Assembly: GCA_003553225.1 (NCBI GenBank)
Contig: PWDW01000023.1
Location: 1-45,061 of the forward strand
DNA: 45,061 bases
Direction: 5' to 3'
Source of the DNA: Halanaerobiaceae bacterium
Lineage (GTDB): Bacteria; Bacillota; Halanaerobiia; Halanaerobiales; Halarsenatibacteraceae
Below, piece after piece: positions 25,288 to 43,215 of this stretch (position 1 is the first letter of the stretch; each line of letters begins with the position of its first letter). The notes beneath the pieces were generated by a model. The model was not told where the DNA came from, ran no database searches, and saw only the letters and a list, made by a program, of their open reading frames with translations. The position numbers and the translations under genes were made by a program.

Positions 25288-27009
25288 CTAATTTTTGGGA
25301 CGTCTCCTGTACTCAGTATGCAGCAGTCTATGAGCACGCCGGCTTAAGGGCTCTTCTAGATAGTCCTCATAAACCTTTTTAATCATCGGGTTTTCATGAG
25401 ATTTCCTTATTGTTTTGGCCTGATCAATACTGCCCAGACCTTCTGCCCTTCTGTCTTTTTTTTCTTTATCAACGGGAAGCGGCTGCCCTCCACCCCCCAC
25501 ACAGCCGTGAGGACAGGCCATAACCTCAATAAAATCATACTCTGAAGTTCCTTCCCGCACATCTTTTAAAAGTTCTCCTGTATTACCCAGACCACTAACA
25601 ATAGCCACCTTAATAGTTCTATCTCCTATCTCAATTTCTTTATCCTGTACTCCAACAAATCCCAGCTCCAGTCTTTCCAGAGGTTCACCGGTCAGCTTCT
25701 CTTTTACGGTCCTTACTGCAGCTTCTGTTACCCCACCTGTAGTTCCAAAGATAGTACCGGCACCCGTGGATTTACCCAGCAGTTCATCATATTCATCTTC
25801 TGGCAGATGATTGAGATCAATCCCAATTTCTTTAATCATTAAGGCCAGTTCACGGGTAGTAAGAACAGCATCAGTATCTTTTAAGGGGCCACCATTTATT
25901 CCGGCTCTGTCTTTTTCAAACTTTTTGGCAGTACAGGGCATAATAGAGACAGTATATATTTTTTCTGGTTTAATACCTGTCAGATCAGGGTAATAACTTT
26001 TAGCCAGAGCAGAAAACATCTGCTGTGGGGATTTAGCTGAAGAAAGATGATTCAGTAAATCAGGATAATTATGCTCGGCAAATTTAACCCAGCCCGGACA
26101 GCAGGAAGTAATATGTGGTAATTTTTCATTACCTTCCAGTCGGGCCAGAAACTCATATCCCTCTTCCATGATTGTCAAATCAGCTGTAAACTCAGTTGAA
26201 AAAACTCGATCAAAGCCCAGCTTCCTCAAGGCTGTAACCATTTTACCGGTCACCACAGTACCCGGCTCCATACCGAATTCTTCTCCCAGGGTGGCCTGAA
26301 TAGAGGGCGCGGTCTGAACAACTACATGTTTATCATCAGCTTCAAGAGCCTGCCAGACATGATAAATTTCATTTTTTTCCACAATTGCTCCCACCGGGCA
26401 AACGGTCGCACACTGTCCACAGTTGGCACAGTTAATCTCACTCTGGGGCAGGTCAAAGGCAGTTGTAACTATAGAATCAAATCCCCGGTTACTAAACTGA
26501 AGAGCTGAAACACCCTGTACCTCTTCACAGATACGGACACAGCGGCCGCACAGTATACACTTATTGGGTTCTCTTTTAAGAGCCGGTCCTGTTTTATCTG
26601 GGGTAATATCCCTGGTCTCACCCTCATATTTTTCTATTTCCCTGGTTCGAATACTTAAATCATGAGCAATTTCCTGAAGTTCACAGGTTCCACTTCTATC
26701 ACAGCCCAGACAATCATTGGGATGATTGGCCAGCAGTAAAGAAACATTTCTCCGCCGGGCCTTCCTGGCCCTCCTGCTCCTGGTGCTAATTTCCATACCT
26801 TCAATAACCGGAGTAACACAGCTGGCCAGAGATCGATTATGGGCTACATCCTCCACTTCACAGACCCGGCAGGCCCCGTGACGGGTAAGATCCGGATGAT
26901 AACAGAGAGTTGGTATTTCTATACCCAGTTTTCTGGCAGCTGATAGTACGGTCGTCCCTTCCGGTACTTTAACCTGTTCCCCATCTATAGTTAAACTAAT
27001 TTCACTCAT
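25288..27009 (-). CDS. [FeFe] hydrogenase catalytic subunit (HydA/HndD-like)
   Basis: Makes H2 at an H-cluster with electrons from the partner subunits. The 573 aa show in order: a 2Fe-2S ferredoxin-like domain (Cys36, 47, 50, 64), the His-Cys3 cluster (His96, Cys100, 103, 109), two 4Fe-4S motifs (CILCGRCVRIC, CANCGQCATVC), then the H-cluster motifs TSCCPGW (301-307), MPCTAKKFE (near 357) and MACPHGCVGGGGQP (near 497). All catalytic cysteines are present. The small-subunit domain is at the end. With the NuoE-, 2Fe-2S- and NuoF-like genes upstream, this fits the electron-bifurcating HydABC or NADP-reducing HndABCD type; cofactor choice cannot be read here. Confidence 0.95.
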   Translation of the reverse strand: MSEISLTIDGEQVKVPEGTTVLSAARKLGIEIPTLCYHPDLTRHGACRVCEVEDVAHNRSLASCVTPVIEGMEISTRSRRARKARRRNVSLLLANHPNDCLGCDRSGTCELQEIAHDLSIRTREIEKYEGETRDITPDKTGPALKREPNKCILCGRCVRICEEVQGVSALQFSNRGFDSIVTTAFDLPQSEINCANCGQCATVCPVGAIVEKNEIYHVWQALEADDKHVVVQTAPSIQATLGEEFGMEPGTVVTGKMVTALRKLGFDRVFSTEFTADLTIMEEGYEFLARLEGNEKLPHITSCCPGWVKFAEHNYPDLLNHLSSAKSPQQMFSALAKSYYPDLTGIKPEKIYTVSIMPCTAKKFEKDRAGINGGPLKDTDAVLTTRELALMIKEIGIDLNHLPEDEYDELLGKSTGAGTIFGTTGGVTEAAVRTVKEKLTGEPLERLELGFVGVQDKEIEIGDRTIKVAIVSGLGNTGELLKDVREGTSEYDFIEVMACPHGCVGGGGQPLPVDKEKKDRRAEGLGSIDQAKTIRKSHENPMIKKVYEDYLEEPLSRRAHRLLHTEYRRRPKN

Positions 27010-27057: not shown

Positions 27058-28860
27058 TCAACCCTGGGTGACTGCATCAACAGGACATGCCTCTTCACAG
27101 GCACCACAGGAGATACATAAATCCTCATCTATAACATATATTTCATTATCCTGGACACTTACAGCATCAACCGGACAGGCACGGGCACACTGACCACAGG
27201 CCACACAACCTTCTTCATCAATCATATAAGCTCCCGCAAGTTCAGGGCAGACTCCCGCCGGACAGTACTTATCTTCAATATGAGCCTCATATTCTTCCCG
27301 AAAATAATTAATTGTACTTAATATAGGATTAGGTGCAGATTGGCCCAGACCACACAGAGAAGTATCTTTAATATGATTGCCCAGTTCTTCCAGCAGTTCA
27401 ATATCACCGGAAGCTCCCTTACCACCACAAATTCTTTCCAGAACTTCCAGCATTCTCTTGGTCCCTTCCCGACAGGGTGTACACTTTCCACAGGATTCAC
27501 TCTGAGTAAAATCAAGGAAAAAACGGGCTACATCTACCATACAGGTATCTTCATCCATAACCACCATACCACCTGAACCCATCATCGAGCCCACTTCCAG
27601 AAGTGAATCATAATCTATCTCTAAATCCAGATATCCGGCCGGGATACAACCTCCGGAAGGACCTCCGGTCTGGACAGCTTTAAATTCATTATCACCAGTC
27701 AAACCACCACCAATATCAAAAATTACTTCTCTAAGAGTAGTGCCCATGGGAACCTCCAGCAGACCGGTATTTTTAATCTTACCGGTAAGGGCAAAAACTT
27801 TGGTGCCTGTGCTGTTTTCAGTCCCTATTGAGTTAAAACTCTCTGCTCCTTTATATATAATATAGGGGATATTGGCAAATGTTTCTACATTGTTTATATT
27901 TGTGGGTTTGTCCCAGAGCCCTTTTTGGGCTGGATATGGTGGTCGGGGGGACGGCATACCTCGTTTTCCTTCAATAGAAGCCATTAAGGCAGTTTCTTCT
28001 CCACAAACAAAAGCCCCAGCTCCCTTTTTAATATGGAGTTCAAAATCAAAACCACTGCCAAAAATATCTGACCCCAGAAATCCGTATTCCCGGGCCTGAG
28101 ATAATGCTTTTTCCAGTCGTTTAATAGCCAGAGGATATTCAGCTCTGATATAAATATACCCTTCATCTGCACCAATTGCATAGGCTCCTATCAGCATACC
28201 TTCAATTATGCGATGGGGATCTCCCTCAAGAATACTGCGGTCCATAAAGGCACCCGGATCACCTTCATCAGCATTACACACAATATATTTTTTATCACTT
28301 TTGGTATTATAGGCAAACTCCCATTTATTGCCTGTCGGAAAACCACCCCCACCTCGACCCCGCAGCCCTGAATTTTTGACTTCAGAAATAACTTCACCGG
28401 GGTCCATTTTAGTCAAAGCTATACCTGCTGCTTCATAACCATTATTAGCTATATATTCATCAATATTTTCGGGGTCAATTTTTCCACAATTAGCCAGTAC
28501 AATTCTCTGTTGTTTTTTATAAAAATCAATATCGTGATAGGAGGGAATCTGTTCTTCGGTAACCGGTTCTCTGTAAAGCAGGTCTTCCAGGACTCTGCCT
28601 TTTAACAGATGTTCCTCTACCAGCTCTGCAATGTCTTTTTTCCCTACTTCACAGTAAAAAACTCCTTCCGGATAAACCACCACAATCGGACCTTTTTCAC
28701 AAAAACCATGACATCCCGTTTCTATAACTTTAATTTCATCAGTTAAATCATGTTGGGCAATCTGGTCTTCCAGCTCTACCTGCAGACTATCTGCTCCGGC
28801 AGAACTGCATCCGGTGCCCGTACAGACCAGAACATGTGAACGATATACTGCATCTTTCAT
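27058..28860 (-). CDS. NuoF-like NAD(P)H/FMN subunit of hydrogenase (HydB/HndC-like)
   Basis: Flavoprotein that exchanges electrons between NAD(P)H and the iron-sulfur chain of the hydrogenase. The 600 aa contain an N-terminal thioredoxin-like 2Fe-2S domain (CTGTGCSSAG, ETGCHGFCEKG), the FMN/NADH module with GLRGRGGGGFPTGNKWEF near residue 167, the 4Fe-4S site SESCGKCTPCREG, and a C-terminal pair of 4Fe-4S motifs (CVACGQCARACP, CISCGACEEACP). This domain set is standard for bifurcating hydrogenases. It is separated by 48 nt from the catalytic subunit. Confidence 0.94.
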   Translation of the reverse strand: MKDAVYRSHVLVCTGTGCSSAGADSLQVELEDQIAQHDLTDEIKVIETGCHGFCEKGPIVVVYPEGVFYCEVGKKDIAELVEEHLLKGRVLEDLLYREPVTEEQIPSYHDIDFYKKQQRIVLANCGKIDPENIDEYIANNGYEAAGIALTKMDPGEVISEVKNSGLRGRGGGGFPTGNKWEFAYNTKSDKKYIVCNADEGDPGAFMDRSILEGDPHRIIEGMLIGAYAIGADEGYIYIRAEYPLAIKRLEKALSQAREYGFLGSDIFGSGFDFELHIKKGAGAFVCGEETALMASIEGKRGMPSPRPPYPAQKGLWDKPTNINNVETFANIPYIIYKGAESFNSIGTENSTGTKVFALTGKIKNTGLLEVPMGTTLREVIFDIGGGLTGDNEFKAVQTGGPSGGCIPAGYLDLEIDYDSLLEVGSMMGSGGMVVMDEDTCMVDVARFFLDFTQSESCGKCTPCREGTKRMLEVLERICGGKGASGDIELLEELGNHIKDTSLCGLGQSAPNPILSTINYFREEYEAHIEDKYCPAGVCPELAGAYMIDEEGCVACGQCARACPVDAVSVQDNEIYVIDEDLCISCGACEEACPVDAVTQG

Positions 28861-28879: not shown

Positions 28880-29245
28880 TTATTCCTCTAGTCTGGCAAT
28901 CGCCAGCTCATCAACCACAGTTCCATTTATTACATGTTTTGCTATTATTTTTTTTACATCATTTGCTTTCAGTTCACCATAAGTTACCCTTTCTTTACCC
29001 GGCAGCTTAACATCCATCAGCGGCTCTTTTTCACACATACCTATACAGCCGGTTTGAGAAATTTTAACATCCAGGCTTCGTTTTTCAGTTTCTTCGATAA
29101 CTGTTTTCATAATCTCCCGGGCTCCGGCCGATATACCACAGGTTCCCATACCAATAATTATTTCCGGCATTTTTTTTTCAGATCTGGTTTTCATATCTTT
29201 TTGTACCTGTTCTCTTAATTCTTTCAATTCTTCAAGTGATTTCAT
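28880..29245 (-). CDS. Thioredoxin-like 2Fe-2S ferredoxin subunit (HndB-like)
   Basis: 121-aa electron-transfer protein of the hydrogenase complex. Four cysteines in GMGTCGISAG and QTGCIGMCEKEP match the thioredoxin-like [2Fe-2S] pattern C-x4..-C...C-x3-C; the N-terminal half is a charged helix. It resembles HndB of NADP-reducing hydrogenases. Its start overlaps the HATPase gene by 14 nt and it ends 19 nt before the NuoF-like gene. Confidence 0.88.
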   Translation of the reverse strand: MKSLEELKELREQVQKDMKTRSEKKMPEIIIGMGTCGISAGAREIMKTVIEETEKRSLDVKISQTGCIGMCEKEPLMDVKLPGKERVTYGELKANDVKKIIAKHVINGTVVDELAIARLEE

Positions 29246-29795
29246 CTTCTTGACCTCCGTAAAGATTTTTTATACCTGATACAATGAATTTTTCCAGCCA
29301 GTTAATAATCTTATTTTCAGCAATACTAACTTCTCCTAACTGACTCTTAATTTCAGCGGTGTGAAGCACAAACTCCTCATTCTGTCTACTGTGTCTGTAT
29401 ACAAGGTCCAGTTCAGGATTCAATTTTATAATTGAAACCAGTGTTGTCGATATATCTCCCAGTGGTGGCCGGTCAATATGATCTTTTTGAAATTCTGCTT
29501 TAATCACCGTTCCTTTTCCTTTTTCAGATGTGATTTTCATGTTTCCCTGACAGCTTTCTGCCGTCTGAGCAAAAAGAGACAAACCAAGTCCCACCCTGCG
29601 GGTCTTTCTGGTAGTAACAAAAGGGTCGGCAGCAGTTTTTTTCTGCTGTTCATTCATACCCCGGCCATCATCTTTTATCTCAATAACCAGTTTGTTTTCA
29701 GATGTCCTGTCCCGGATAATAATCTCTACCTTTTCTGCTGAAGCTCGAATTGAATTCTGAACAATATCCAGAATATGAAGTGATAATTCACGCAT
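29232..29795 (-). CDS. HATPase-domain protein inside the hydrogenase operon
   Basis: 187-aa protein with a GHKL ATPase domain: N-box LDIVQNSIRAS, G1 KDDGRGM and G2 RRVGLGLSLFAQ. It has no phospho-acceptor histidine, membrane segment or sensor domain, so it is not a complete sensor kinase. About 65 C-terminal residues have no recognised domain. It sits between the NuoE- and 2Fe-2S-subunit genes and overlaps the latter, so it is made with the enzyme. Similar ATPases occur in clostridial hydrogenase operons, but their role is not established as far as I know; a regulatory or assembly job is inference. Confidence 0.8.
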   Translation of the reverse strand: MRELSLHILDIVQNSIRASAEKVEIIIRDRTSENKLVIEIKDDGRGMNEQQKKTAADPFVTTRKTRRVGLGLSLFAQTAESCQGNMKITSEKGKGTVIKAEFQKDHIDRPPLGDISTTLVSIIKLNPELDLVYRHSRQNEEFVLHTAEIKSQLGEVSIAENKIINWLEKFIVSGIKNLYGGQEDEIT

Positions 29796-29803
29796 AACAG
29801 AGA

Positions 29804-30358
29804 TTAATACTCATTTAATATTTCCGGTACTTTATCCGGGGTTAAACGCCCATAGGTCCCATCATTGATCATAATAACCGGGGCCAGACCACAGGCTCCA
29901 ATACAGGCCACAGTTTCTAAAGTAAACTTTAAGTTATCAGTGGTCTCACCACTGCTGATACCCAGCTGTTCTTCCATTTCATTAAGAATTTGGCTGCCTC
30001 CCCTTACATGGCAGGCCGTACCCATACAAATTCTTATAATATTTTTCCCCCGGGGCTGTAGATGAAATTGAGTGTAAAAAGTTACCACCCCATAGACTTC
30101 ACTTAATGAAAGCTCCAGAAAATCTGCAATTCTTTTCAAAACTTCTTCCGGCAAATATCCATATTCATCCTGTGCTTCCTGTAAAACTGGGATTAAAAAC
30201 TTTTTTTTGGTTAGGGGGTCGATTTCACTATCCTTTTTTTTCTTTTTCTTTAAATCTATATCAGACTCTGCGGGTACCTGATAATTGTTCAATATCTCTT
30301 CTAAAGGCTGCAGATATTTCTCAATATTTTTCTTTTCATTGTCACACTGACAGGCCAT
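29804..30358 (-). CDS. NuoE-like 2Fe-2S subunit of hydrogenase (HydC/HndA-like)
   Basis: 24-kDa-type thioredoxin-fold subunit, 184 aa. The four ligands appear as CMGTACHVRGG and VACIGACGLAPV; the preceding GYLPEEVLKRIADFLELSLSEVYGVVTFYTQF is typical. I start at ATG 30358, 7 nt after AGGGAGG; an upstream ATG at 30412 adds 18 residues without a ribosome site. An unusual lysine-rich patch (KKKKKKD) lies near residues 37-43. It is the first gene of the hydrogenase operon, behind a perfect promoter and Rex-like site. Confidence 0.94.
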   Translation of the reverse strand: MACQCDNEKKNIEKYLQPLEEILNNYQVPAESDIDLKKKKKKDSEIDPLTKKKFLIPVLQEAQDEYGYLPEEVLKRIADFLELSLSEVYGVVTFYTQFHLQPRGKNIIRICMGTACHVRGGSQILNEMEEQLGISSGETTDNLKFTLETVACIGACGLAPVIMINDGTYGRLTPDKVPEILNEY

Positions 30359-30462
30359 ATAAAAACCTCCCTGTTGATTAATTTTATTAGCTTGTTTTTG
30401 TTGGATATTCATCCTGTTTAAAAGGTGCTGTCCACCATGATTATTTGTTGTTAACAGCTATA

Positions 30463-30491: not shown

Positions 30492-30520
30492 ATTATAAAA
30501 CAAATAATCTCTTCTGTCAA
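30492..30520 (-). promoter_or_regulatory. Consensus sigma-A promoter of the hydrogenase operon
   Basis: Perfect TTGACA (30515-30520), 17-nt spacer and perfect TATAAT (30492-30497) on the minus strand. The leader to the first gene is about 125 nt. Confidence 0.92.
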
Positions 30521-30540: not shown

Positions 30541-31284
30541 TCATTTTAATAAAGTAATATTTTTCTGTCTTTTCAGATCAGTCATAACCTTCTTGATTTC
30601 TGCAAAAGAAGGCTCTTTTAACATCACTTTCATCTCTTTATTTATTTCATTAAGCCGATGACTGTCTCCATTTTTTATTAGCAATACTTCAGGATATTGA
30701 TCTTTTATGTTCTTTACTTCTGTCCTGCTTTGTATTTCCATAACCGAAAAGTTTAAATCAAAGGGTACAAACCCCAGCTGATATAAAAGGCCATACGCCC
30801 GGTTTACATGGGCGGGAATTACCAGTCCTCCCATATTTCTTACTTTTTTTACAACAGTCCCAATAGAGACCTCAGCTGCTGCCGCAAGCATGTGGTTTAT
30901 CTTTTCTGAATATTGATCATTACTATCCACCCTGACCTGGCTTCCAAAAAATTCTTCCCGGTTCTGCTTATCGGGCAGATGAGCATATATAAATTCCTGC
31001 AGTTTTTTAACCTCTCCTAAATCAGCAAAAAGGCAGATCAAATGAACCTCTTCTCTGGTCTGTACTTCGATACCCGGAATAACCTCAAGGGGCATCCTCT
31101 GAGCCATTTCAAGAGCAACCTTTACATTTTCCGCAGAATTATGATCGGTTATGGCAATAATATCTATTTTTTTCTCAACTGCCTGCTGCACAATATTACC
31201 GGGAGTCATCAGCAGGTCTGCACAGGGAGAAAGTACGGTATGTATATGTAAATTAAGATAATATTTTCTTAATTTACTCACCAT
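30541..31284 (-). CDS. PHP-domain metal-dependent phosphoesterase
   Basis: 247-aa PHP-superfamily protein. Metal ligands are visible in LHIHTVLSPCAD, ITDHNSAEN, IPGIEV and EVHLICLF, then IPAHVNRA and NGDSHRLNEI. PHP proteins hydrolyse phosphoesters; the substrate here is unknown. It is the last gene of the regulatory operon upstream of the hydrogenase and overlaps the DRTGG gene by 11 nt. PHP genes recur beside sensory [FeFe] hydrogenase homologues, so a signalling role is plausible but unproven. Confidence 0.85.
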   Translation of the reverse strand: MVSKLRKYYLNLHIHTVLSPCADLLMTPGNIVQQAVEKKIDIIAITDHNSAENVKVALEMAQRMPLEVIPGIEVQTREEVHLICLFADLGEVKKLQEFIYAHLPDKQNREEFFGSQVRVDSNDQYSEKINHMLAAAAEVSIGTVVKKVRNMGGLVIPAHVNRAYGLLYQLGFVPFDLNFSVMEIQSRTEVKNIKDQYPEVLLIKNGDSHRLNEINKEMKVMLKEPSFAEIKKVMTDLKRQKNITLLK

Positions 31285-31612
31285 TCACACCCAGTTTATA
31301 AAGCAAGCCGGATAATTCAAAAGCAGAAAGAGAGCTGCTGAATAAATTAAGGCCTTCCTTTCTGGCATGTTCACGGGTCTTTTGGTCAACATCAAAATTT
31401 TCTGCTACAATCACCCCTGCTGCACCGGTTAAAAGAGCAACAGCCGCTACATTCTGATGGCCCTGAACTGTAATCCACAGCTCTCCCTCCTTTAGTTTGG
31501 CCATTACATTACTCAGCATGTCGCCGGTATATCCATTTTTTACTTCCTGTTCAAGATTCTCCGCTTCCAGAACTTCCAAATCAAGCTTTGATACTATCTC
31601 TTTAACCTTCAT
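31274..31612 (-). CDS. DRTGG-domain protein
   Basis: 112-aa protein that is almost entirely a DRTGG-type domain, with VKNGYTGDMLSNVMAKLKEGELWITVQGHQNVAAVALLTGAAGVIV near residues 25-70. The start is ATG 31612, with AAAGGGTGA upstream, inside the end of the preceding gene (11-nt overlap); the longer reading is not supported. DRTGG domains are found near CBS and phosphotransacetylase proteins, and their ligand is uncertain. A second, diverged copy is the first gene of this operon. Confidence 0.8.
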   Translation of the reverse strand: MKVKEIVSKLDLEVLEAENLEQEVKNGYTGDMLSNVMAKLKEGELWITVQGHQNVAAVALLTGAAGVIVAENFDVDQKTREHARKEGLNLFSSSLSAFELSGLLYKLGVNGE

Positions 31613-33029
31613 TATAATCACCCTTTGTTTGGTCCAATTCATCCCCAGAATGTACTCCATATGCATCCTTAAACATCTTTTCTTCCGACATTACAGGAGG
31701 CAGCTCCCGGGCCAGATTTGAGATCTGTTCTGCCAGGTTTTGTACTTCCTGTCTCAGCATAAATATACAGTCCGTTCTTTGGGCTTTTCCCTGAACAATA
31801 TCTTCGGCCAGTGTTTCACAATCGGGAGCACCACAGGAAGCACAATCAAGTCCCGGCAGCAGGTCTTTTTCTTCTTCCAGACGGGAAAGTTTATCCAGAG
31901 CCCGATCCATATCGGGATCCAGTTTGCCCCTCTGATCTGATCTGAATGGCCTATCCAGAGAAAAATCATATTCTTCACCCTTCTGATCGGGTGTAATTAT
32001 TTTTTGATTATTTTCTTTGGCTGCTGTTCGTATATTAAATTTAGCCTGAAAGGAATTACATACATTCAAAACTCCACCCACACAGCCCTGGGGACAGGAG
32101 ACAAGCTCAAAATATTTTATACCAGAAATATTGCTGTGGACCAGTTCTGATAAAACTTTCTGTATTTCCTTTATTCCGGATACAGAAAGCACCCTGTGTT
32201 CCTGAAAAGAACCTAAAAGTTTTTCTTCCCCACCACTTTGACCCCATTTGATACCCTGATCGAACACCTCATTTTGTTTTATCTGAGCAGCTGATTTGTC
32301 CTTCTGTTTAGTGTGCGTTTTTTGTTTGTCATTATTTTTTTGTTGTTTTATCACCGGCAGTATTTTTTCATAAATATCATTAACAGCCAGCACCCCATCA
32401 AGATAGCTGGCTTTTTGGCCCAGAGCAAGTTCTAAAGAAGTAAGTTTAGCCGGACAGGGGGTCAGAAAAAATAATCCAATTTCATCACCAGAAATATCAT
32501 TATTTCTTATCAGCTCTTTTCTGGCCTGCTGAGCAGTTGACTCTACAGGAGATTTAAAAGGCAAAAGATGCTCTATTAATTCCGGATATATTTTCTGTAT
32601 GAGCCGGACCGTTACCGGACAGGAAGAAGAAATATAATAATTATCAGCCTGTTTTAAAAATTTAGCTGTTTTTGCACTAAGAGCCTCTGCTGAACGGGAA
32701 ACATTATATATTTCATTAAAACCAAGATCATAAATAGACTGATAGAGTATATCCGGATCATAGAAGTGAGAAAATTGCCCGTAAAAACTGGGAGGAATTA
32801 AAAGCACAGGATAATCATAATCTTTGATATATTCCAGCTGATGAGCCCGGGTATACTTGGCATCATACTCACAGGTTCGAATACATTCCGCACAGTCAAT
32901 ACATAGGTCATCAATAATTGAAGCCTGTCCCTGATGAACCCTGATGGCACGGGTAGGACAATTTTTAACACAATTTGTACAGCCTTCACATTTTTCTTCT
33001 TTTAACTGTACTGAATGCTTTTTTGCCAT
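31602..33029 (-). CDS. Sensory-type [FeFe]-hydrogenase-like iron-sulfur protein
   Basis: 475-aa protein with two N-terminal 4Fe-4S motifs (CEGCTNCVKNCP, CIDCAECIRTCE), a hydrogenase large-subunit-like domain and a C-terminal Fe-S domain (LDCASCGAPDC...C, about 395-421). The H-cluster motifs are altered: TSCCPGW is SSSCPVT (Cys137), MPC is TPCPAK (Cys192), MAC..GC is SCPQGC (Cys312, 316). All four cluster ligands remain, but the proton-transfer Cys has become Ser. This resembles sensory HydS-type proteins more than enzymes, although there is no PAS domain. ATG 33029 follows AAAGGA; the GTG reading from 33059 has no site. It overlaps the DRTGG gene. Confidence 0.85.
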   Translation of the reverse strand: MAKKHSVQLKEEKCEGCTNCVKNCPTRAIRVHQGQASIIDDLCIDCAECIRTCEYDAKYTRAHQLEYIKDYDYPVLLIPPSFYGQFSHFYDPDILYQSIYDLGFNEIYNVSRSAEALSAKTAKFLKQADNYYISSSCPVTVRLIQKIYPELIEHLLPFKSPVESTAQQARKELIRNNDISGDEIGLFFLTPCPAKLTSLELALGQKASYLDGVLAVNDIYEKILPVIKQQKNNDKQKTHTKQKDKSAAQIKQNEVFDQGIKWGQSGGEEKLLGSFQEHRVLSVSGIKEIQKVLSELVHSNISGIKYFELVSCPQGCVGGVLNVCNSFQAKFNIRTAAKENNQKIITPDQKGEEYDFSLDRPFRSDQRGKLDPDMDRALDKLSRLEEEKDLLPGLDCASCGAPDCETLAEDIVQGKAQRTDCIFMLRQEVQNLAEQISNLARELPPVMSEEKMFKDAYGVHSGDELDQTKGDYNEG

Positions 33030-33075
33030 TTTAACCAGTCCTTTATATCTGAAATTCACATTGATTATTAGAATA

Positions 33076-33516
33076 TTATTCTTCAGATGATAATTTTATA
33101 GAAGTACGAACTTCGGTAAAACTATCAACTTCCGTGTTAATCTCCAGGAAATCCGAATATTCTCTTACATTATTTAAACCCATACCGGCACCAAATCCCA
33201 TTTCCCGAACTTTCTCTTCTGCGGTAGAATAACCAGGTTTAAGTGCTTTTTTTACATCCCTTATGCCCGGGCCCCGATCCCGGGCAGTAATTAATATTTC
33301 ATCCTTATCGATTTTTACAACAATTCTACCCCCATTTGAATGTATTATTATATTCATCTCCAGTTCATAGGTAATAATAGCAGTTTTCCTTATTACTTCA
33401 GGAATTATCCCCAGACGGGTGAGAGCTGTTTTTAATTTGCTGGAAACCTGACCTCCTCTGTTGAAGTTTCGGGCTTCAATCTCTTTCTCTAAAATTTTAT
33501 TTTTATTCAAAATCAT
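33076..33516 (-). CDS. Anti-sigma-factor-like HATPase (RsbW-type)
   Basis: 146-aa GHKL ATPase of the serine-kinase anti-sigma type: N-box YELEMNIIIHS, G1 DRGPGI and G2 GFGAGMGLNNVREYSD, ending with a TEV-type strand. It has no membrane or sensor region. It lies between the DRTGG gene and the sensor-like H-cluster gene in one tight operon. RsbW-type proteins phosphorylate or bind protein partners; neither a sigma factor nor an anti-sigma antagonist is in the window, so the partner may be one of the neighbours. Confidence 0.85.
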   Translation of the reverse strand: MILNKNKILEKEIEARNFNRGGQVSSKLKTALTRLGIIPEVIRKTAIITYELEMNIIIHSNGGRIVVKIDKDEILITARDRGPGIRDVKKALKPGYSTAEEKVREMGFGAGMGLNNVREYSDFLEINTEVDSFTEVRTSIKLSSEE

Positions 33517-33526
33517 CGCCCCTTTT

Positions 33527-33883
33527 TTATTTAAAACTTTTGATTGGTTCAGGTTTCACACCGGCCTGATACAAAAGACCACAGCAGGCAAAAAGTGAGT
33601 AGGGGGCTTTATAAAGTGAAATACCTTTCTTTTGGGCCAGTTCTATAGTCTCCTGTTCGGGAGTCTTATTTCTTACAAAGATAACAGCTTTTAGATCAAT
33701 CATTTCTGCTGTACGAACCACCTGGATATTTGTTAGGCCGGTTAACAGTATTGTTTTGCTGCTGGAAAAAGCAAGAACATCACTCATTAAATCGGAACCA
33801 CAAGCTGTTTCAATTTCCAATTCAGGGTTTATCTCAACCAAAACATTCAGGCCCAGCAATTTTTTGGCTTTTTTTATATTCAT
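33527..33883 (-). CDS. DRTGG-like domain protein (first gene of the regulatory operon)
   Basis: 118-aa protein with weak but visible similarity to the second DRTGG gene: ETACGSDLMSDVLAFSSSKTILLTGLTNIQVVRTAEMIDLKAVIFV aligns with its core, and both end in a phrase of the type S.FACCGLLYQAGV versus SAFELSGLLYKLGV. It keeps two adjacent Cys near the end. It begins the operon behind a promoter at 33949-33978, with AAGGTGG before the ATG. Function unknown. Confidence 0.72.
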   Translation of the reverse strand: MNIKKAKKLLGLNVLVEINPELEIETACGSDLMSDVLAFSSSKTILLTGLTNIQVVRTAEMIDLKAVIFVRNKTPEQETIELAQKKGISLYKAPYSLFACCGLLYQAGVKPEPIKSFK

Positions 33884-33948: not shown

Positions 33949-33978
33949 ATTATACAGTATAGAACCGGTATTAGTAAA
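33949..33978 (-). promoter_or_regulatory. Promoter of the regulatory operon
   Basis: TTTACT (33973-33978), an 18-nt spacer and perfect TATAAT (33949-33954) on the minus strand, about 60 nt upstream of the first gene and just after the mazEF terminator. Confidence 0.65.
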
Positions 33979-33997: not shown

Positions 33998-34026
33998 AAT
34001 AAAAAAATCCCGGTATAACCGGGATT
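33998..34026 (-). terminator. Intrinsic terminator of mazEF
   Basis: AATCCCGGT (34006-34014) pairs perfectly with ACCGGGATT (34018-34026) around a 3-nt loop; the minus strand then runs into TTTTTTTATT. Confidence 0.9.
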
Positions 34027-34104: not shown

Positions 34105-34458
34105 CTACAGCTCAATCAGCCCCAGACTAATCTCAATTGCTTCATTGACTTTTTGCAGGGTTTCATCTCCCAGATGGGTTATATGCCTCTGAAGCCTTTT
34201 TTTATCAATGGTCCTGATTTGTTCCAGCAAAATAACTGAATCCCGATTTAATTTACTGCTGTCAGAAGCAGGTATTTCTACATGAGTGGGTAACTTTGCT
34301 TTGTCTATTTTAGATGTTATGGCCGCAATTATTACCGTAGGGCTGTATTTATTACCAATATCATTCTGGATAATAAGTACCGGCCTCACTCCTCCCTGTT
34401 CTGATCCTACCACCGGATTCAGGTCAGCATAATATACATCACCGCGCAGTACCTCCAC
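34105..34458 (-). CDS. mazF: MazF/PemK-family mRNA interferase (NdoA-like toxin)
   Basis: Sequence-specific endoribonuclease toxin, 117 aa, the standard length of the EndoA/MazF type. The opening [30 protein letters not shown], catalytic Arg25 and Thr48 (ITSK), and the end [15 protein letters not shown] are diagnostic. It starts at GTG, 3 nt after the antitoxin gene, with no good ribosome site of its own, so translation is probably coupled. It ends before a strong terminator. The cut site cannot be predicted. Confidence 0.95.
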
Positions 34459-42952: not shown

Positions 42953-43092
42953 TCTGTTTATACCTCCTTTAACGAATATATGTTCGCCCTCTAAATAAAT
43001 TCATTACTCCATTTTTGATCTGCTATTTTTAAAAATTTACCCTCGTAATTTTTCTCCTGTTCTTCTCTTTAAGCCGATAATTACTTACCGAA

Positions 43093-43215
43093 TTTAAAAA
43101 AGAACTCAGGCCCGGAGAAAAGGACCGGGGATACCCGCCGAATAATCGATAATCCCCACCTCGTCAACTTAAACAGCTGGCGTCCCTGTCTAAGTTCAGG
43201 CGCTTAAAAACAAAT
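43093..43215 (-). ncRNA. glmS ribozyme (glucosamine-6-phosphate-activated)
   Basis: The minus strand reads TTTAAGCGCCTGAAC, then a P1 strand pairing AACTTA/TAAGTT, then GTTGACGAGGTGGGGATTAT and CGGCGGGTATCCCCGG, which match the conserved glmS ribozyme core (AGCGCC.GAAC; GUUGACGAGG.UGGGG; UCGGCGG...CCCGG). The self-cleavage site is predicted between 43204 (A-1) and 43203 (G1). A GGTCC/GGGCC stem follows the core. In this class glucosamine-6-phosphate acts as cofactor and cleavage lowers glmS mRNA. Distance to the glmS ATG is about 140 nt. Confidence 0.93.

Follow-up and report, generated by a model that had tools for sequence, protein, structure and literature searches.

A group D [FeFe]-hydrogenase of a Halanaerobiaceae bacterium lies in a conserved cassette of DRTGG, HATPase and PHP genes

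The [FeFe]-hydrogenases of group D (M2e) are described, in three papers (PMC8163306, PMC10407848, PMC13104023), as having N-terminal clusters, a C-terminal Cx2Cx4Cx16C motif and no PAS domain; C299 is lost, a hydroxyl residue occupies M353, and two glutamates, E252 and E289, are specific to the group. 'D M2e' genes without PAS are also listed in PMC3561251. Group D is further characterised by low turnover, high H2 affinity and a stabilised Hred state. The turnover of H2 by its representative TamHydS, from T. mathranii, is low but real, and D265, which forms the outer end of the proton path proposed there, is called "well conserved" without being group-defining (PMC10407848). According to PMC13104023, H2 reduces the H-cluster of TamHydS and one N-terminal cluster and alters the secondary structure, but leaves the C-terminal cluster in its oxidised state. 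The location of group D genes near kinases and bifurcating hydrogenases is already in print (PMC8163306, PMC3608648, PMC3561251; nearby kinases in general terms in PMC3608648, PMC3561251 and PMC3492117), and Land et al. name two neighbours of TamHydS, a HATPase and a regulator of the 'AraC family'.

We analysed a 45,061-nt stretch of Halanaerobiaceae DNA (contig PWDW01000023.1), referred to below as the window. The hydrogenase gene under study and its parts are as follows.

31602..33029, minus strand: HydS, [FeFe]-hydrogenase of group D (M2e), taken to begin at ATG; its longest ORF opens at GTG 33059
32859..32993, minus strand: N-terminal two-[4Fe-4S] ferredoxin domain of HydS, residues 23-67 (Pfam 4Fe-4S dicluster)
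32073..32807, minus strand: H-cluster domain PF02906 of HydS, residues 85-329 (Pfam E 1e-25)
32622..32624, minus strand: Ser146 codon of HydS, at the column of CpI C299 and TamHydS A137
32226..32228, minus strand: Glu278 codon of HydS, aligned with TamHydS E252, a residue of the proton relay published for group D
31761..31859, minus strand: C-terminal Fe-S domain PF04060 of HydS, residues 401-433; Cx2Cx4Cx16C formed by C406, C409, C414 and C431

The ATG at 33029 is better supported as the start than the GTG at 33059 because AAAGGA lies upstream of it and homologues start there too. Residues are numbered from the GTG (P0001), which adds 10 to the numbers of the original prediction. That prediction held that Ser replaces the proton-transfer Cys while the four H-cluster ligand cysteines remain, and both statements were confirmed: the motif reads S144-S145-S146-C147-P148, with S146 at the CpI C299 column, and the ligands are C147, C202, C322 and C326 (137, 192, 312 and 316 in the earlier numbering). 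Equally correct were the TSCCPGW motif reported for HydA of the neighbouring operon (25288-27009) and the combination of a C-terminal Fe-S domain with no PAS domain, as Pfam found PF04060 at residues 401-433 and no PAS in HydS. The AlphaFold2 model (pLDDT 86.5) had its best fold matches among [FeFe]-hydrogenases (CbA5H, DdH, HydABC, CpI), and a PDB sequence search gave a single distant match, HDCR HydA2.

Window HydS is a group D (M2e) [FeFe]-hydrogenase of the class of T. mathranii HydS. The TamHydS anchor was picked by published residues, of which one locus (L121/L146, genome G318) matched 24/24 at exact positions against 11 for the runner-up. In a tree of 66 rows (LG+C20, 446 columns), all 34 group D rows, including window HydS and the TamHydS-type row L146, formed one clade with support 100/100, separate from the 11 rows of group A, the seven of group B and the 14 made up of group C and its sigma-54 relatives. 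The phylogenetic comparison with groups A, C and D thus placed HydS with the TamHydS-type protein and not with group A. The group D residues are present as T200 at M353, E278 at E252 and E318 at E289; S294 stands at the D265 column, so the D is not kept there. Among 148 non-redundant group D sequences, each of at least 380 aa, the M353 column holds T in 89 and S in 56, the E252 column E in 141, the E289 column E in all 148, and the D265 column D in 112 and S in 29. Group A was ruled out by the lost relay Cys, T at M353, the separate clade and a TIGR02512 score of 64.8 bits (cut-off 405.95); group C (M2f) was ruled out by the lack of a PAS match and the position outside the C clade. The suggestion that HydS might be a distinct sensor type was not borne out, as the lack of PAS together with a C-terminal Fe-S domain is what PMC8163306 and PMC3561251 give for group D / M2e. 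Of the putative sensory type, the protein class stood, as group D; the sensor role remains a proposal, TamHydS being a slow but active enzyme (PMC10407848).

Proteins of another architecture were found in genomes of relatives, where an H-cluster domain and PF04060 are joined in one protein with an entire sigma-54 activator, HTH included. Four contain PAS (L247, L249, L250, L251) and two do not (L255, L263); they keep the ligand Cys (SSACP or STACP, GPC, CxGC) and are sister to the histidine-kinase-type group C in the 66-row tree. A paper search found no paper on a sensory hydrogenase combining sigma-54 and H-cluster domains. These fusions are possibly one-protein H2-responsive transcription activators.

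The serine itself was found to be common. All ten rows of the alignment of relatives have S at the Ser146 column, so chance or a sequencing error does not account for it. At the C299 column, 88 of the 148 group D sequences have Ala, 55 Ser, three Thr, one Gly, one His and none Cys. Among the best 80 of 312 loci, 28 of Halanaerobiia type have Ser and 50 have Ala; the Armatimonadota-labelled L073 has Ser and L063 has Gly. When the D rows were placed on a FastTree phylogeny built with this column masked, Ala and Ser/Thr interchanged at least nine times. Because of these counts and exchanges, Ser at the C299 column is an ordinary alternative to the published Ala and by itself not diagnostic; the repeated interchange likewise rules it out as the mark of a new sensor class. 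Ser146 probably stands in for Ala as a small residue next to the azadithiolate, and Glu278 and Glu318 would form the proton relay of HydS.

HydS is the third gene of a cassette in the order DRTGG1, HATPase (HATP1), HydS, DRTGG2, PHP, all on the minus strand. The other elements are listed here.

34006..34026, minus strand: terminator-like hairpin and T run between the cassette and an upstream MazF-like gene
33949..33978, minus strand: promoter-like TTTACT-18-TATAAT upstream of the cassette (consensus match only)
33527..33883, minus strand: DRTGG1, DRTGG-family protein of 118 aa, assigned through its family (no Pfam match of its own at 1e-3)
33076..33516, minus strand: HATP1, SpoIIAB/RsbW-like HATPase with N, G1 and G2 box residues kept
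31274..31612, minus strand: DRTGG2, DRTGG-domain protein; ATG at 31612, 11-nt overlap with the HydS stop
30541..31284, minus strand: PHP phosphoesterase, His/Asp/Glu set kept; overlaps DRTGG2 by 11 nt

DRTGG2 matched PF07085 with 33.5 bits (cut-off 25.2), and its model (pLDDT 92) matched the folds of 3l2b, the DRTGG of a CBS-pyrophosphatase, and 2ioj. The window copy of DRTGG1 had no PF07085 match at 1e-3; its counterpart in L146 scored 29.8 bits against the same cut-off of 25.2. Because the N/G1/G2 box and the His/Asp/Glu residues are kept, HATP1 and PHP both look catalytic. HATP1 falls short of the curated spIIAB model (44.3 bits, cut-off 135) and also resembles RsbA, while the PHP family matches models of nucleoside-bisphosphate phosphatase and RNase RNM, both below cut-off. 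Pfam found neither a STAS or sigma-factor gene nor a DNA-binding domain in the window cassette. A MazF/PemK-like toxin gene lies directly upstream (34105-34458) and occurs at many Halanaerobium loci too, and the only Rfam match in the window was a glmS ribozyme (43049-43215, minus strand, 99.3 bits).

We assessed the conservation of the cassette across 159 loci, reduced to 151 by merging those with identical C-terminal 250 residues of HydS; L225, with a split HydS, was left out. The first 80 were the best 80 of 312 and are biased toward close relatives, and the 80 added comprised 70 of about 143 matches listed, sampled stepping down, plus 10 others. The set drawn from the phylum of G063 overlaps the set of relatives, and duplicates were merged. 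A single profile catches both DRTGG genes, which were told apart by position; a HATP1 ORF above 255 aa was counted as carrying DRTGG1, which affects L163 (verified by Pfam), L164 and L170 (both by reading the sequence). All four partners were present at 122 of the 135 non-redundant loci with room on both sides, and at 70 of 72 such loci among the best 80 of 312. Singly, HATP1 was found at 141/143, DRTGG1 at 136/143, DRTGG2 at 139/142 and PHP at 133/142 non-redundant loci. Exceptions included two loci without HATP1, three without DRTGG2 and four that otherwise have the cassette with no detected PHP (L167, L171, L172, L175). The downstream partners are missing at L062 and L168, the upstream partners and PHP at L181 and L191, and DRTGG1 at L052, L178, L180 and L190; at L162 HATP1 is the only partner.

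The TamHydS-type locus L146 has the complete cassette followed by hyd genes. Its HydS is directly flanked by a HATPase and a 111-aa DRTGG protein, the latter with no DNA-binding match in Pfam. We infer that the 'AraC family regulator' reported beside TamHydS is this DRTGG protein, with L146 not proven to be T. mathranii. In searches by neighbourhood terms and locus tags the DRTGG/PHP cassette did not turn up as described anywhere, although two papers beyond their scope, Calusinska 2010 and Greening 2016, are likely to be relevant and may describe it. No link between DRTGG and hydrogenases appeared in the titles and abstract openings retrieved. HydS itself is a further group D protein; what the literature searched does not describe is the cassette and its fusions.

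Co-occurrence was measured in one draw of 348 Bacillota genomes (the phylum of G063), with E-value thresholds of 1e-60 for HydS, 1e-22 for HATP1, 1e-30 for PHP and 1e-190 for HydA A6. HydS was detected in 135 genomes, HATP1 in 147, PHP in 135 and HydA A6 in 244. Both HydS and HATP1 were present in 133 genomes, HydS only in two, HATP1 only in 14 and neither in 199 (phi 0.907); for HydS and PHP, the counts were 127 with both, eight and eight with a single one and 205 with neither (phi 0.903). The control pair, HydS and HydA A6, was far looser (both 125, HydS only 10, HydA only 119, neither 94; phi 0.391), so that HydS follows HATP1 much more closely than HydA (0.91 versus 0.39). As the genomes are related and not independent, Fisher p-values overstate the association and phi is used descriptively.

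Several cassette members are fused. In L166 and L174 HydS continues into a DRTGG domain after PF04060, the position of PAS in group C; other fusions are DRTGG-HATPase (L163), CBS-HATPase (L154, L202, L218) and PHP-HATPase2 (L182), all by Pfam. A few kb upstream of the D cassette, L166 and L174 also encode a group C HydS as a single chain, H-domain-PAS-HisKA-HATPase (by Pfam on L166 and by reading the sequence of L174). Twenty further regions were taken from genomes having one cassette family without HydS, or a second copy, and 12 of them are HATP1 loci without HydS, clear of contig ends. HATP1 carries a CBS pair in seven of the 12 (L227, L229, L230, L231, L232, L233, L243) and none in five (L234, L235, L236, L239, L240), compared with CBS-HATP1 at only three non-redundant loci among those with HydS. 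The order DRTGG-HATP1-DRTGG-PHP-HATP2 minus HydS was found in five of the 12 (L227, L229, L231, L232, L243). Cassettes without HydS adjoin MreBCD in L243 and in L244, which also lacks HATP1 (both read from sequence), so the module is not limited to redox genes. In L226 and L228 HydS is present, broken into two ORFs, as also in L039 (Halanaerobium polyolivorans), reflecting a pseudogene or an assembly error. A DRTGG1-HATP1 pair lies beside Rex and an NfnA-like gene in L235 (both confirmed) and, by like layout, in L240.

Downstream of the window cassette lies the operon of a bifurcating hydrogenase.

30492..30520, minus strand: sigma-A-type promoter of the form TTGACA-17-TATAAT, upstream of the hyd operon (12/12 consensus match)
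29804..30412, minus strand: NuoE/HydC-like subunit of bifurcating hydrogenase (Pfam, NCBIfam-type profiles)
29232..29795, minus strand: HATP2, histidine-kinase-like ATPase within the hyd operon (domain profiles)
28880..29245, minus strand: HndB-like 2Fe-2S protein (domain profiles)
27058..28860, minus strand: HydB-like, NuoF-type subunit (by eye and family profile)
25288..27009, minus strand: HydA, NADH-dependent [FeFe]-hydrogenase group A6 (NCBIfam 815 bits, cut-off 765)

Among 60 gaps between PHP and NuoE, 14 score 11-12 of 12 for a sigma-A promoter, mainly in Halanaerobiia. A Rex operator ahead of hyd was rejected, the best match having two mismatches and the window holding five matches against 5.7 expected. 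HydA/HydB genes were found in the stretch at 113 of the 151 non-redundant loci (80 on the same strand, 29 on the opposite strand, four on the same strand with an RnfC-like gene). An RnfC-like gene lies downstream at 11/151 loci, seven of them without Hyd. NCBIfam confirmed RnfC in L058, L218, L219 and L230; the other assignments are by profile score. Neither was seen at 14/151 loci despite more than 6 kb downstream, and 17/151 were too short. Bifurcating HydAs often read TSCSP (L146_A, L065_A, L148_A, L177_A, L186_A, L089_A, L111_A, L001_A and A. woodii HydA1, 7q4v), putting Ser at the CpI ligand C300 column, unlike the TSCCP of window HydA. The maturase HydG was not found in the organism's own assembly (G000) although two HydA and HydS are present, and no HydF lay above cut-off there (best 108 versus 325.6 bits). 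HydG exceeded the cut-off in 11 of 21 genomes of the relatives search, and its absence from G000 with that of HydF is perhaps an assembly gap.

We consider it probable, at roughly 0.6, that group D HydS supplies the H2/redox signal to a dedicated signalling module. Its place in group D, the conserved cassette, the co-occurrence, the fusions, the cassettes without HydS and the adjacency to HydABC and Rnf argue for this. H2 would reduce the H-cluster of HydS and one N-terminal cluster and thereby change the shape of the protein, and the C-terminal Fe-S domain may hand the signal to DRTGG2, which would take the place of PAS in group C. The hand-over is proposed to be conformational and not redox because H2 alters the structure of TamHydS without oxidation change at its C-terminal cluster (PMC13104023). 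DRTGG2 would then shift the kinase activity of HATP1, which would also receive an adenylate signal from DRTGG1 or CBS and be opposed by PHP as phosphoesterase, and the output might tune Rnf or the bifurcating hydrogenase. We weakly favour protein-level control over transcription because none of the window cassette proteins showed a DNA-binding domain in Pfam and a consensus promoter of its own precedes the hyd operon. Against the signalling module we count the slow turnover of TamHydS, HATP1 scoring below the spIIAB cut-off with no STAS or sigma partner in the cassette, cassettes missing PHP, HATP1 or DRTGG2, cassettes with no hydrogenase nearby (e.g., beside MreBCD), and the maturases HydG and HydF not found in the own genome assembly.

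The likeness of HATP1 to SpoIIAB and RsbA, with catalytic residues kept, would also suit a partner-switching system in which HATP1 is an anti-sigma factor and serine kinase, and a sigma factor that transcribes hyd or rnf is released when HydS and DRTGG2 act as the switch. We regard this as unlikely, given the score below the curated cut-off, a cassette with no STAS or sigma gene, and sigma-A-type promoters at hyd (12/12 in the window and the 14 of 60 gaps noted above). About as doubtful is a nucleotide second messenger, whereby PHP would hydrolyse an adenine-type nucleotide bound by DRTGG or CBS under gating by HydS: the metal-binding set and sub-cut-off phosphatase and RNase matches of PHP, the CBS-HATP1 fusions and the fold match of DRTGG2 to a CBS-pyrophosphatase regulatory region speak for it, but of the 142 loci with enough downstream sequence, 9 have no PHP.

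Somewhat less probable still is that HydS is no sensor and works as a slow catalytic hydrogenase or redox valve that its neighbours regulate or assemble. TamHydS does turn over H2 (PMC10407848) and the published proton-relay glutamates are conserved, but the published rates are low and the neighbours have signalling-type domains. Moreover, cassettes without HydS retain DRTGG, HATPase and PHP, which are thus not mere helpers of HydS, and DRTGG is fused at the PAS position.

Beyond the signalling role itself, a wider proposal is tentative, at slightly under even odds: group D would be the H2-input plug-in of a widespread unnamed Bacillota module (DRTGG, SpoIIAB-like HATPase, DRTGG, PHP and a second HATPase) that takes in H2/redox by way of HydS and adenylate status by way of CBS/DRTGG, integrates the two and controls ferredoxin-NAD enzymes (HydABC, Rnf). 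DRTGG would replace PAS as transducer, and it would follow that the gene annotated as an AraC regulator beside TamHydS encodes a DRTGG protein. The conserved partners and fusions are concrete candidates for how the putative group D sensor passes its signal on. If the proposal holds, fermenting bacteria would measure H2 inside the cell and pass the reading to the very enzymes that choose between H2, NADH and ion pumping, with a bearing on H2 in the gut and rumen and on biohydrogen.

Among known systems, TamHydS is the closest, sharing with window HydS the domain order, Cx2Cx4Cx16C, the absence of PAS, the loss of C299, the M353 hydroxyl, the E252/E289 equivalents, the position beside HydABC, the clade and the cassette. 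Identity to the L146 protein is 38%, and window HydS differs from TamHydS in S146 for A137, H42 for R32, S294 at the D265 column, V320 for L291 and A411 for S384. Group C / M2f HydS of the Thermotoga maritima type also has N-terminal clusters, the H-domain and PF04060, with C299 often lost, but it contains PAS, in many cases followed by a kinase or another output domain, and forms its own clade. The group A6 HydA of the window shares the H-domain fold and ligand Cys, whereas it keeps the relay Cys, M353 and M497, has a NuoG-like N-terminus and belongs to another clade. SpoIIAB/RsbW kinases share their fold family and ATP-site residues with HATP1, which differs in scoring below the curated cut-off and in having no STAS/sigma partner seen in the cassette. 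Finally, the CBS-DRTGG region of family II pyrophosphatase (3l2b) resembles the present system in the DRTGG fold and in combining CBS with DRTGG, whereas DRTGG here is solitary or fused to HATPase or HydS, without the pyrophosphatase.
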